Virus record (IMG/VR): IMGVR_UViG_3300036781_000318
Location: 1-38,166 of that record
DNA: 38,166 bases
Source: a virus
Reading direction: 5' to 3' (one strand)
The translations under genes were made by a program, and so were the position numbers. The notes beneath the pieces were generated by a model, which was not told the DNA's origin, searched no databases, and saw only the letters and a list, made by a program, of their open reading frames with translations. Shown in pieces: positions 648-11,381 of the stretch. Position 1 is the stretch's first letter, and each line of letters begins with the position of its first letter.

Positions 648-1021
648 TCTTCGTCGTAGTTTTCCCAGTCAAAACCCATTTCCTCGATGAACTGCCGTTC
701 CAGATTTGTGGCGAAAACATGCTCTTTGTGATACGGTGCGGTTTTCATGTCGCCAGGCTCGTGATCGCCGATCAGCTGGGGATTCGCCTTTCGGAGATTC
801 TCGAACTTGAAATCGAAACGGGAGATTTCCTCTTCCGTTATGCCGCGCATTTGGGTGAGCTGCCACTCGACCAGTTCATGCAGGAATATCGCTATCTCAT
901 ACGCGCGGTTCCCGATTTGGGAAACTCGAAATTGCCAGACTCCTTTTTCATCGAGCCAGTAGTCGCCCACTGTATCGTAGCGTTGTCTTTCTTGTGGAAT
1001 TATTTCAAAGTTTATTTGCAT
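632..1021 (-). CDS. Hypothetical phage protein with HELVE motif
   Basis: This 129-aa acidic protein has a central HELVEW motif (about residues 48-53) that resembles the start of a zincin helix but lacks the second His of HExxH. The C-terminal half contains DHEPGDMKTAPYHKEHVFAT, a His/Asp-rich segment that could bind a metal. I recognise the overall pattern from uncharacterised phage proteins but know no function. It overlaps the end of the methyltransferase gene by 10 bases, so the two are probably translationally coupled. The next promoter starts almost at its stop codon. Confidence 0.8.
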   Translation of the reverse strand: MQINFEIIPQERQRYDTVGDYWLDEKGVWQFRVSQIGNRAYEIAIFLHELVEWQLTQMRGITEEEISRFDFKFENLRKANPQLIGDHEPGDMKTAPYHKEHVFATNLERQFIEEMGFDWENYDEEVDNL

Positions 1022-1950
1022 AATGAATTTTCCTTTATCGCTTTCATGATCTGCATCGCTACTTGCGGGACGATGGCGTTGCCGAGTGCCTTGAGTCGCT
1101 GATTTCTGTCCAATCTTTTGGGTATCCCATCATCCACTCGACAAAGTTCGGCTGCAACTTCAATCCAGTCCCTTCGCCAACCCGATACGGAAGATTTGGG
1201 GTAAAATCCTTTCGACTTTGTGGCGTATGCTTGTTTGCCCTGGGGGTCGGCAATATTATGCTGCGTATCACGTCCTGCACTTTGGCTCCGTAGCGTATCC
1301 CGTTCTTTCTCGTGACCGACCATCCGCTTTGCGTGGGCTGCGCTGTTATTTCCGCTCCGCTCATTCCGTCCCCTCCCCTCACGGTGGGCAACAAACCAGA
1401 CCCTGTCCCTTCGGTGGGGCGCGTCAACGGCGACAGCAGGAATAACAATCGGCTGGACTTCGTAGCCTGCGCTTTCCAGATCAAGGCACACCTGCTCGAA
1501 TACCACGCCTCCCCCGATAGTAAGTAGTCCACGCACGTTCTCAGCGATGACCCACTTGGGCTTGAAAGATTCAATAACTCTGAGCATTTCCGGCCAGAGG
1601 TGGCGGTTATCCTCCGTTCCCTTCCTTCGTCCGGCTTGGCTGAACGGCTGGCACGGGAACCCGCCCGTGAGAATAAAGGGTGAGTCAAAGCCTGCGAGAG
1701 GTTCACCGAGTGCTTGGTCGTCGCCGACTGCTGGCTGGATTTCAGGTTTCCGGTGAACGTGTCGCTGCTTGTGGGTGTCGGGAGTAAGGGTTCTGATGTC
1801 GCCATATATTTTTGATGTTGGCCAATGCTTTTTAATTACTCGCTGTGCGAATGGATCTATATCGCAGAAAACATGCTCGACTTCTCCGAAGACGGTATCT
1901 GCCGCAAGTGCGAATCCGCCAATTCCGCTGAATAAATCTATATGTTTCAT
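1012..1950 (-). CDS. dcm: DNA (cytosine-5) methyltransferase
   Basis: This 312-aa C5 methyltransferase would methylate cytosines in phage DNA, probably as protection from host restriction. Motif I is FSGIGGF at residues 7-13. The catalytic motif IV is GGFPCQPFS with nucleophile Cys100, ENV (137-139) is motif VI, HRRDRVWFV (179-187) is motif VIII, and KALGNAIVPQ near 287-296 carries motifs IX-X. The target recognition region is short and low in hydrophobics. About 35 residues (roughly 56-92) are inserted between motifs II-III and motif IV. A second long open frame overlaps most of the gene at +1. The start overlaps the upstream stop as ATGA. No close Shine-Dalgarno is visible. The methylated sequence cannot be predicted. 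Confidence 0.95.
   Translation of the reverse strand: MKHIDLFSGIGGFALAADTVFGEVEHVFCDIDPFAQRVIKKHWPTSKIYGDIRTLTPDTHKQRHVHRKPEIQPAVGDDQALGEPLAGFDSPFILTGGFPCQPFSQAGRRKGTEDNRHLWPEMLRVIESFKPKWVIAENVRGLLTIGGGVVFEQVCLDLESAGYEVQPIVIPAVAVDAPHRRDRVWFVAHREGRGRNERSGNNSAAHAKRMVGHEKERDTLRSQSAGRDTQHNIADPQGKQAYATKSKGFYPKSSVSGWRRDWIEVAAELCRVDDGIPKRLDRNQRLKALGNAIVPQVAMQIMKAIKENSLCK
1059..1805 (-). CDS. Overlapping +1-frame ORF inside dcm, probably a second coding sequence
   Basis: This frame is open for 248 codons and covers dcm residues about 49-297. Unlike ordinary shadow frames, it contains phrases I recognise from methyltransferase-linked phage proteins: LLPTPTSSDTFTGNLKSSQQ near the start, CALIWKAQATKSSRLLFLLSP in the middle (given here within 20 residues as ALIWKAQATKSSRLLFLLSP), LPTPRANKHTPQSRKD, and PNFVEWMMGYPKDWTEI near the end. 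The LPTP block is encoded by the same DNA as the extra segment in dcm between motifs III and IV. The ATG at 1805 has only A/T-rich sequence upstream and no Shine-Dalgarno, so expression could use weak initiation or frameshifting. Function is unknown. That it is translated is inference. Confidence 0.55.
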   Translation of the reverse strand: MATSEPLLPTPTSSDTFTGNLKSSQQSATTKHSVNLSQALTHPLFSRAGSRASRSAKPDEGRERRITATSGRKCSELLNLSSPSGSSLRTCVDYLLSGEAWYSSRCALIWKAQATKSSRLLFLLSPLTRPTEGTGSGLLPTVRGGDGMSGAEITAQPTQSGWSVTRKNGIRYGAKVQDVIRSIILPTPRANKHTPQSRKDFTPNLPYRVGEGTGLKLQPNFVEWMMGYPKDWTEISDSRHSATPSSRK

Positions 1951-8223: not shown

Positions 8224-9612
8224 CTACGATTCGTTTGCCGTGATGTCGGGATGGACGTTCGCCCAATCGACATGCTGCGCTCCCGAATTATCCTTCGTAG
8301 TCGGGACTGCATAGCCAAGATTGAGTCCCTTGTCGATAAGCGCCGGCTCGTTGGTCGCCGGTAAGTAGAAACCGAACTCTTTTGATCCATCAGCTTTTGT
8401 CACCTCTACCAGTTTTGCGTTGCTCATAATTTCCATATAGGGCTGTGCGTTCACCCAATCCCTGTAAGGTGGGTTAGACACGCCATTAATTTTGATTCCG
8501 AAATGCAAGTGTGGGGCTTCGGCATCCCCAGTTCCTCCGCTGTACGCGATCAGGTCTCCGCGCTTCACCTTTCCGCTGCCGAAAACGAGGCGCGAATTGT
8601 GACCGTAGTTCGACATCCCCCAAGGATGCTGGATACGGATTTCCTCTCCGTAGGCCCCGTCATTCCCGGAAAAAATGATCGTGCCGTCATCGCACGCATA
8701 TACCGGAGTCCCGGTGGGTGCATGGAAGTCTATTCCCTCGTGGCCGGCAAGACCGTATTTCGGGTAATGCCATTGGCCATCAGAATCCTTGAAGTCCGCT
8801 CCGAACGCTTGGGTGACTTTCGGGTTGGCCACCGGATAGCTGAGATTCACTGGCGCTCCTTTTGTCGTGGGAGAGATCCAAGGAACGACCGCGTATGCCT
8901 CCATCCGAACGTACGAGTACGGAAGGAACGCATACCCCGATAGCCCCCAGGAGACATCCCAGTGGTTTTTAATTTCTAAAGCTTGTTTTGTATCGTCCCA
9001 TCCGACCACGGATATTTCGTGGTAGCCGATGAGTTCCGAGGAGACCTGCTCGATCACCCCGTTCGAACCCATTGGCAGATAGTCCGCGTAAACCGGAATG
9101 GTTATGGAGACCGGCTCCCCTCGCATCAGGGCCGTCTTTATGTCCGCGACCGATGAGAGGGCCGCATAACCGCCTTCGCGGTATTTGCCGCCATCCTCGA
9201 CCATGCCTTGCGTGAGTCCCGACATGAACGCAGGATATTCCAAGCTCTCGTCATCGGGAAGCGTTATCTCAAGCGGAGTGCTGAGTCCGGTGATGACCGA
9301 GAGCATCGAACGTGTCGTCGTGCCCTCGTCCGGATTGAGAGTCGTTCCGCCGTCATACTCCTTGCAGAGGATGAAAATTCCGCGTGCCGACCGCGGCGTG
9401 AAGTTGCCGTTGGCCATGATGTCCAGAAACTCGGACATGTCCTTGGCCGTATAGGCTTCGCATGTGCCGAATTGCCCTTGGTTGTAGACCGGGCTTTGTT
9501 TGGATCTCAGGGAATAGGTCGGCGGCAGATCTGCCGCGTTCGGCACGATTGAGGCGTATACCACGTCCCTCTTGTCGGTTTTGCTTAGATTAGCACCTAG
9601 CTTGAAGGGCAT
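8224..9612 (-). CDS. Endolysin: papain-like (C1) peptidase fused to M23 peptidase
   Basis: The 462-aa protein has two catalytic domains. Residues 1-245 form a C1 cysteine peptidase: oxyanion Gln45 and Cys51 in YNQGQFGTCEA, His198 in GYHEISVVGWDD, and Asn216 in KNHWDVSWGLSGYAFL. Residues about 255-390 form an M23 (LytM-type) zinc endopeptidase: His291 and Asp295 in GHEGIDFHAPTGTPV, His338, and H368-L-H370 in APHLHFGI. About 75 residues of unassigned tail follow. The M23 part should cut peptidoglycan cross-bridges; the C1 target is unknown. No signal peptide is visible, which fits release by the holin-like gene 9 bases upstream. AAGG precedes the start. Confidence 0.88.
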   Translation of the reverse strand: MPFKLGANLSKTDKRDVVYASIVPNAADLPPTYSLRSKQSPVYNQGQFGTCEAYTAKDMSEFLDIMANGNFTPRSARGIFILCKEYDGGTTLNPDEGTTTRSMLSVITGLSTPLEITLPDDESLEYPAFMSGLTQGMVEDGGKYREGGYAALSSVADIKTALMRGEPVSITIPVYADYLPMGSNGVIEQVSSELIGYHEISVVGWDDTKQALEIKNHWDVSWGLSGYAFLPYSYVRMEAYAVVPWISPTTKGAPVNLSYPVANPKVTQAFGADFKDSDGQWHYPKYGLAGHEGIDFHAPTGTPVYACDDGTIIFSGNDGAYGEEIRIQHPWGMSNYGHNSRLVFGSGKVKRGDLIAYSGGTGDAEAPHLHFGIKINGVSNPPYRDWVNAQPYMEIMSNAKLVEVTKADGSKEFGFYLPATNEPALIDKGLNLGYAVPTTKDNSGAQHVDWANVHPDITANES

Positions 9613-9974: not shown

Positions 9975-11381
9975 TTAATCTTTAATGACGTCAAAGTAAT
10001 CCATCGCCTCCAGCGCATCGTATCGGGCCTGCGGAGAGGTCGGATAGTCGTTCTTGTCGATATCGGTGCGCGCTTCCCGGCTCGGATAATGGATCTTTTC
10101 CAGATTGTTAAGGGCTTCCTCGCCGGCAGTCTTGATGGTGTAGTCTTGGCCGCAGATTATGCCGACCTCGTTCCCGTATCCTGCGATGAAGTATTTGTCG
10201 TCCTGCCTGTACGCGTCAAAGAAGTAAAAATCCTTCTCAACGCCATCGAGCAGGATGATGGGAAAACCGGCTTTCGGGTGGTCGATCCTGCAAAGGATAG
10301 AAGCGCCGAAACCATCGTTGAAGTTATCATAGAATCTTTCAATGCGCCCGTCCATGAAGTCGGTGATGATCTCCGGGAATGATCTGATTCCGAGATTTAT
10401 GAAAAGGTTCGGATGGGCGTTGTACCCGAAGCGCGCGCAGAACTCAAGGAAATAGTTCTGCTTCTCCGAGACGATGAAATTCATGTCGATGAATCCGGTA
10501 TAGTCTGCCGGCATGTGCGGCAGGAGCTTCATCACGGTTTCAGTGACGGCTTTGCATTCAAGCGGCACGGTGAACGCAAAGTCGAACGCGCAACCGACCA
10601 TTTCGCCCTTGTCGCCGTTCGAACGCCGCTTGCATTCCAGATCGCAGAAAGCGAAAAATGGCTGGCCTTTGTAGATCCATACCTCGACGTTCGTCTCCAC
10701 ACCCTTTTTGCGTTCTTGGAGGATATAGTTCCCTCCTTCTTCCGGAAGGGCCTTCATGTAATCAACCAGCTCGTCGTGGGCATCCTTGTCTTTCGGGCAA
10801 TCCGGAACGTAAGTGCTGTATGATCCCTCGCCGTCATCCGGCTTGAACACGAATGCGCGCTCAAGATTCCCGTCCTCTTCGAGGAACGCCAACCCGTCGG
10901 AGATCGTCGGAAATTCAATGGTTTCCGGAGTCGGAAGCCCTGCTTCGCGTACCATGTCTTCGCCGAATTTGCGGTCATGCTCCATTTTGTCGTTCAGCTC
11001 GGATCCGCCCAACACGCGAGGGAACCCTTCCTTGCGCAGCTGCTCGGACTGTTCCCAATTATGATTGCCGTCCCAGATCCAATACGATGTCTTGTACTTC
11101 GCCCTCGATTCCATCAGTTTTTCGAGAGGGATACGCGGAACTATTCCGTCCCCGACCTTCTCGAAACCTTCCATTTGCTTTTCGAGTTCGGACAGTTCCC
11201 CAATTTCCTTCATGGTCAGGTTTTTTTCCGCGGCGAGCTTGTCGTACTGTTCAGGTTCAGATCCAGCAGTGGCCAGAATGGTCGGGAAACCGGCTTCCAT
11301 AGCCATTTTTGCGAACCCGAGACCGGAATAATCCTTGGTGACGATGATTATGTATTCTTTTTTTGTTTCTTCGGCTGGCAT
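9975..11381 (-). CDS. PurD-like ATP-grasp ligase
   Basis: This 468-aa protein matches glycinamide ribonucleotide synthetase (PurD) in architecture: an N-terminal Rossmann-like part, a central ATP-grasp with FKPDDGEGS (about 189-197) and ECKRRSNGDKGEMVGCAFDF, which parallels the DHKR/GDKGPNTGGMG block of PurD, and FLEFCARFG, which parallels its metal-binding E-x-N-x-RFG. The end (AGEEALNNLEKIHYPSREAR then TDID) parallels the C-terminal domain. The usual N-terminal GxGGREHA loop that holds phosphoribosylamine is absent. It should still use ATP to join a carboxylate to an amine, but probably on another substrate. It is first in the lysis unit behind its own promoter. Confidence 0.85.
   Translation of the reverse strand: MPAEETKKEYIIIVTKDYSGLGFAKMAMEAGFPTILATAGSEPEQYDKLAAEKNLTMKEIGELSELEKQMEGFEKVGDGIVPRIPLEKLMESRAKYKTSYWIWDGNHNWEQSEQLRKEGFPRVLGGSELNDKMEHDRKFGEDMVREAGLPTPETIEFPTISDGLAFLEEDGNLERAFVFKPDDGEGSYSTYVPDCPKDKDAHDELVDYMKALPEEGGNYILQERKKGVETNVEVWIYKGQPFFAFCDLECKRRSNGDKGEMVGCAFDFAFTVPLECKAVTETVMKLLPHMPADYTGFIDMNFIVSEKQNYFLEFCARFGYNAHPNLFINLGIRSFPEIITDFMDGRIERFYDNFNDGFGASILCRIDHPKAGFPIILLDGVEKDFYFFDAYRQDDKYFIAGYGNEVGIICGQDYTIKTAGEEALNNLEKIHYPSREARTDIDKNDYPTSPQARYDALEAMDYFDVIKD

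Follow-up and report, generated by a model that had tools for sequence, protein, structure and literature searches.

A +1 frame nested in a phage dcm gene probably encodes the second subunit of a split C5-cytosine methyltransferase

Same-strand nesting of one long gene within another is rare and difficult to prove. This question is raised by a viral DNA of 38,166 nucleotides (IMG/VR record IMGVR_UViG_3300036781_000318, positions 1 to 38,166), referred to below at its full length as the window. According to the ORF list and the sequence, a dcm gene, here called alpha, wholly contains a second open reading frame, beta, which lies in the +1 frame relative to it (Table 1). A previous examination of the letters without database searches (the sequence-only reading) had suggested that these 248 open codons encode a second protein, on account of phrases reminiscent of methyltransferase-linked phage proteins, and both the ORF and the phrases are found in place. 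Is beta then a gene, and what would its product contribute to the methyltransferase? Elsewhere in the window, a 462 aa product (8224-9612, minus strand) has a papain-like cysteine protease domain and a C-terminal M23 peptidase domain and is probably lytic or tail-associated, and a product of 468 aa (9975-11381, minus strand) matches the ATP-grasp profile GARS_A at E=1.3e-5 only, short of the Pfam cut-off.

Table 1. Position of the alpha and beta features in the window, and of comparable loci in other sequences
Feature	Position	Strand	Basis or remark
Alpha, dcm, C5-cytosine methyltransferase catalytic subunit	window 1012..1950	-	312 aa; motifs I-VIII and X, without IX
Beta, nested protein, +1 frame relative to alpha	window 1059..1805	-	ATG start, 248 aa; TRD-like region and motif IX
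Alpha motif I, DLFSGIGGF	1912..1938	-	Alignment A2 and M.HhaI alignment
Alpha YGDI codons, tATGGc supplying the beta ATG (1803-1805)	1795..1806	-	Sequence; Tyr-Gly codons
Beta module aa 7-39, LLPTPTSSDTFTGNLKSSQQ..HSVNLSQA	1689..1787	-	In the alpha frame, extra segment between motifs III and IV
Alpha motif IV, GGFPCQPFSQAG, catalytic Cys	1630..1665	-	Alignment A2 and M.HhaI alignment
Beta conserved core aa 65-137, ATSGRKC...W.S..C.LIWK...TKS.RLLF...T..TGSG	1395..1613	-	Alignment A1
Alpha motif VIII, APHRRDRVWFVA	1387..1422	-	Alignment A2 and M.HhaI alignment
Beta LPTV/LPTP modules aa 138-196, TRD-like variable region	1218..1394	-	Number of LPTP-type motifs varies among relatives
Alpha spacer aa 189-257, place of the TRD in single-chain enzymes	1180..1386	-	Poorly conserved (alignment A2), low-confidence
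Beta motif IX segment, GLKLQPNFVEWMMGYPKDWTE	1104..1166	-	Near-invariant in alignment A1; precedes motif X in single-chain homologues
Alpha motif X, ALGNAIVPQVA	1057..1089	-	Alpha codon choice free from aa 289, the end of beta
Loci behind annotations in differing frames	L208 1878-2606; L209 1454-2131; L206 2499-3524; L207 2874-3689; L198 1745-2659		
Actinophage split methyltransferases	L195 1125-2334; L210 1098-2043; L024-L026		TRD, IX and X on the second ORF

The alpha product is matched by PF00145 (E=1.3e-44, profile 1-190/324), phrog_363 (E=2.8e-69) and TIGR00675 (6.6e-38, above the model cut-off), and alignment with M.HhaI places motifs I, IV (catalytic PCQ), VI (ENV) and VIII in order. 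Its predicted model matches the large domain of M.HaeIII/M.HhaI (Foldseek E=7.6e-11). Between motifs VIII and X, pLDDT is about 31-41 over most of the region, and alpha, as modelled, appears to have no folded target-recognition domain (TRD). A motif IX-type segment was not found in the alpha frame, and aa 194-258 have low pLDDT, so that neither motif IX nor the TRD seems to be carried by the alpha chain. The sequence-only reading had attributed both motifs IX and X to dcm; at its 3' end the dcm frame has motif X only, and it is the second frame that encodes the IX-like segment, NFVEWMMGYPKDW.

The counterpart of the missing part appears to be found in beta. The phrog_1008 profile (DNA methyltransferase), built by others, matches the beta of the window over most of the protein (aa 7-237, profile 4-285/329, E=3.5e-17). 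The same profile matches a single-chain enzyme, gp63 of Mycobacterium phage Nimbo, over the C-terminal half with the TRD, IX and X (477-673, E=3e-72); the N-terminal half of this enzyme matches phrog_363, the family of alpha. The matches of the second frame are not confined to frame-shifted dcm, since phrog_1008 covers both beta and, in frame, the C-terminal halves of single-chain actinophage enzymes, the genes of which have no such overlap. In Nimbo gp63 and related enzymes, motifs I-VIII, LPTP modules, EWMMGWPxGW and GNGVxPQ follow one another in one frame; given this in-frame order and the profile common to both proteins, beta would correspond to the part comprising the TRD and motif IX. 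Five single-chain actinophage enzymes were compared (Nimbo gp63, Filuzino gp68, WillSterrel gp71, Gudmit gp58 and Trax gp78): LPTP-type modules are present in most of them, and EWMM-x-x-P followed by GN-x-V-x-P in all, in the same order as in beta/alpha, although on one chain and in one frame. When five C-terminal halves of single-chain enzymes were set against beta, the profile-profile match had a probability of 97.3% (E=1.9e-11). NFVEWMMGYP is named motif IX here for its position ahead of motif X in the single-chain homologues and for its similarity, and we take it to resemble motif IX of M.HhaI; the PDB alignments of the single-chain relatives end after motif VIII, so that the assignment is not anchored on M.HhaI. 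So defined, a pattern search found motif IX solely in beta and motif X solely in alpha in 141 of the 160 distinct alpha/beta pairs that are left when contigs common to both scans are removed; the other 19 are for the most part truncated ORFs, cases missed by the pattern, or the actinophage-like loci L024-L026, which are not nested. Beta has no match in Pfam, NCBIfam or PADLOC, and its profile gave only a chance T-cell-receptor match among PDB chains. The AlphaFold model of beta alone is poor (pLDDT 52) and Foldseek found no known fold for it, an outcome that a subunit folding on its partner could also give. The similarity of sequence strongly supports beta as the counterpart of the TRD and motif IX part, and alpha as that of the rest of the enzyme including motif X; the TRD appears to lie in beta by virtue of TRD-like modules, the fold of which is predicted poorly. 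The link to methyltransferases that had been recognised in the phrases of the second frame is real, but beta seems to be more than a linked protein, namely the missing part itself.

We propose that the locus very probably encodes a split two-subunit C5-cytosine methyltransferase, organised in the manner of M.EcoHK31I and with the beta gene inside the alpha gene, a reading strongly supported by the division of the motifs and by the in-frame single-chain homologues. Alpha would form the catalytic large domain, which binds SAM and holds the catalytic PCQ, and would carry motifs I-VIII followed, at its end, by motif X. Beta would begin inside alpha, at an ATG drawn from the YGDI codons and read in +1, supply the target-recognition modules and motif IX, and stop at the start of alpha motif X. 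The two chains would assemble into one active enzyme, comparable to a single-chain methyltransferase with one cut between motif VIII and the TRD and a second between motifs IX and X. The likely role of this enzyme would be to methylate the DNA of the phage itself against host restriction.

M.EcoHK31I, a precedent known from biochemistry that recognises YGGCCR, and M.EaeI are C5-methyltransferases made of two polypeptides. The gene of the small subunit of M.EcoHK31I reportedly lies within that of the large subunit, in a different frame, a likeness to the present family, in which beta is fully nested in +1 in 174 of the 193 loci examined, the window included. In M.EcoHK31I, the larger polypeptide carries motifs I-VIII and X and a predicted TRD, and the smaller one motif IX (PMC3404938). 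The distribution of the motifs is the same in alpha and beta, motif IX being assigned by position and similarity, whereas the TRD-like modules are found here, by sequence, in beta. The predicted location of the TRD in the large subunit of M.EcoHK31I speaks for another explanation, in which alpha is complete with its own TRD and beta has an accessory or regulatory function or contributes motif IX only; the conservation of an alpha segment ahead of motif X (W-x-x-x-W-x-EVA-ELCRVDDG) points in the same direction. Yet the alpha region between motifs VIII and X is modelled with low confidence and poorly conserved, and the LPTP modules which occupy the place of the TRD in single-chain enzymes sit in the beta frame, and we consider this explanation unlikely. 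A further difference from M.EcoHK31I is that the gene belongs to a phage and that no restriction enzyme was noticed beside the locus. We file the nested phage family as a variant of the M.EcoHK31I kind, compared with that enzyme by its description only, and not as a categorically new one.

A different split is represented by M.AquI, for which the division of the motifs has been given (PMC3404938), and by the split pairs of actinophages (Anthony gp80/gp79, JangDynasty gp6/gp5 and loci L024-L026). As with alpha and beta, the catalytic chain comes first and the recognition chain second, and the actinophage ORFs likewise share DNA, about 210 nt of it, that is read in different frames. Unlike beta, the second chain holds both motifs IX and X, runs past the end of the first gene and is not nested. 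It is possible that the actinophage split pairs are an intermediate between the single-chain and nested forms. In Gordonia phage Ailee, gp4 (L199, 1154-3028) is a single-chain enzyme, near an annotated LAGLIDADG endonuclease, and its +1 frame still has 'WNPSRMLWETETLSLFSAHSEPYSETLPTSGMTRNG...LPTPRATDG', which resembles the start of a split second subunit.

Concerning the expression of beta in the two-subunit enzyme proposed here, an ATG comparable to that of the window is found within Y-x-D-I codons in many relatives. The beta ATG is present in the +1 frame in 106/116 loci, with a +1 stop at a median of 7 codons upstream. The beta start of the window has no Shine-Dalgarno-like site, and such motifs were found upstream of 35/106 beta starts and 28/114 alpha starts. 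The simplest reading of these sequences is internal initiation of beta. A programmed frameshift would instead produce a fusion of the N-terminal part of alpha to beta through +1 slippage, perhaps beside full-length alpha, and beta would not initiate by itself. The weak start context (71/106 loci without a Shine-Dalgarno-like motif) and locus L022, in which the N-terminal half of alpha is fused in frame to beta, would fit such a mechanism. It is nevertheless improbable, as the +1 ATG is so widely present, typically some 7 codons past a +1 stop and often in Y-x-D-I, a fusion near the beta start would be without alpha motifs IV-VIII and give an incomplete enzyme, and L022 is one metagenomic contig, where a single indel could produce the same picture. 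At L022 (1124-2058), the C-terminal half of alpha lies in the other frame, and a single indel or a natural fusion would account for the arrangement.

The extra piece that dcm has between its motifs III and IV (about aa 58-87) occupies, as the sequence-only reading had it, the same DNA as 'LLPTPTSSDTFTGNLKSSQQ...' in the second frame. In nine relatives, the LLPTPTSSDTFTGNLKSSQQ...HSVNLSQA module has 67-91% identity in the beta frame and 19-39% in the alpha frame, and its alpha-phase reading contains stops in loci L024 and L026. The position of this module varies by locus, being before the beta core, after it or at the very C-terminus. LPTP-type motifs number from 0 to 5 per beta, and the LPTV/LPTP region has in-frame counterparts in the single-chain enzymes. 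These sequences suggest that the LPTP modules are exchangeable recognition modules.

The openness of the second frame was evaluated against a null in which the synonymous codons of dcm are permuted, the dcm protein and its codon composition being kept. Not one of 20,000 such shuffles of the window gene gave 258 or more open +1 codons in a row (null mean 94, maximum 233), which rejects chance as the origin of the ORF, and the +2 frame was ordinary under the same test (p=0.90). Among 116 distinct loci, the +1 frame exceeds its null at p<=0.05 in 116/116 and at p<=0.01 in 113/116, and the +2 frame at p<=0.05 in 3/116. The single-chain controls Nimbo gp63 (p=0.23) and Trax gp78 (p=0.14) have no excess +1 ORF. 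The 116 loci had been chosen for a nested match, and the count obtained from alpha alone is accordingly unbiased and weightier. For this count, viral contigs were scanned with the alpha alignment, seeded on conserved alpha peptides and without use of the second frame, which gave at least 584 confirmed relatives. In the best 80 of these, a beta homologue is in +1 of alpha in 80/80 (worst beta E-value 7e-33), 76 being fully nested and 4 not, with broken or longer ORFs; interruption of the second frame by stops in most dcm homologues, evoked beforehand as a sign against a second protein, is not what the relatives contain. Over all loci examined, the window included, beta is in +1 in 191/193, the exceptions L032 and L035 both having interrupted alpha ORFs, and the nested overlap has a median length of 757 nt.

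Both frames are under selection. In 40/40 random pairs, the +1 similarity between the window and a relative exceeds all 40 shuffled controls (median z 9.5); the +2 frame exceeds its controls in 17/40 pairs, an excess expected because synonymous sites are conserved. Codon conservation was measured in 101 divergent sequences as the observed over expected chance that the same amino acid is encoded by the same codon in two genes. For alpha, this ratio is 1.49 inside the overlap, against 1.08 ahead of it and 1.11 beyond it, where codon choice is almost free. It reaches 1.26-1.82 across most of the conserved core of beta and peaks at 2.46 under the beta motif IX segment LQPNFVEWMMGY, and it is 1.02 at alpha aa 289-300, just past the end of beta, even though alpha motif X is highly conserved. 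The third positions of alpha codons are the second positions of beta codons, and this pattern is consequently the one expected from a second protein. Synonymous change is strongly depressed across the overlap and at background past the beta stop, and with the breadth of the family and the homologues beyond dcm, this constraint supports the conserved dual-coding methyltransferase locus that the sequence-only reading had put forward. A chance ORF or artefact, open by codon bias and seemingly conserved as frame-shifted dcm, might be suspected from tblastn matches that frequently coincide with annotated DNA methyltransferase genes, and is almost certainly not the explanation, given that codon bias is ruled out by the synonymous shuffles, and frame-shifted similarity by the similarity null, the synonymous-site profile, the module test (conservation in the beta frame, with stops in the alpha-phase reading of some relatives) and the single-chain homologues that carry the same region in their sole frame. 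Dual coding at this locus is firmly supported, about as firmly as sequence alone permits.

The arrangement is kept in well over 100 viral sequences, in which it is usually annotated as one gene. It is found in Paenibacillus larvae phages Diva and Lily, Lactobacillus phage Lc-Nu, Bacteroides phage BKO1-TP3, Acinetobacter phage ABMM1 and Pseudomonas phages phPA-G and Marin, and also on plasmids of Leptospira and Enterobacter. The nesting in Diva (gp49/gp50) and Lily (gp62/gp63) is of the same kind and is recorded as an 'internal gene', being known from annotation only, and no discussion of it was found in the P. larvae phage genome papers that were searched. A literature search found no description of the nested phage family, which is weak evidence since subscription papers were mostly beyond reach. 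In the record of phPA-G, beta alone is given, as a 'hypothetical protein', and alpha is omitted; the records of Marin, Enterobacter pTO42E, Leptospira p2 and Acinetobacter ABMM1 give alpha alone. One of the two proteins is thus often missing from the annotation, and which one varies, so that many phage and plasmid methyltransferases stand in the records as catalytic halves, and others as hypothetical proteins. The annotated gene, if cloned alone, would probably yield an inactive enzyme. Natural split methyltransferases have already been applied to targeted DNA methylation (PMC3439449), for which new natural pairs would be useful.

The nested alpha and beta represent a strong and broad case of a long same-strand nested gene. 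It is quite possible, without being the reading that we would favour, that they belong to a large family, so far unrecognised, of long genes that overlap on one strand in dsDNA phages, in which the nested frame gains, loses and exchanges recognition modules and the alpha spacer tolerates these changes. If this is true, recombination within an overlapping gene would alter methylation specificity, and a single alpha might pair with different betas. The modules of the nested frame would offer a direct route to the study of how specificity changes under double coding.
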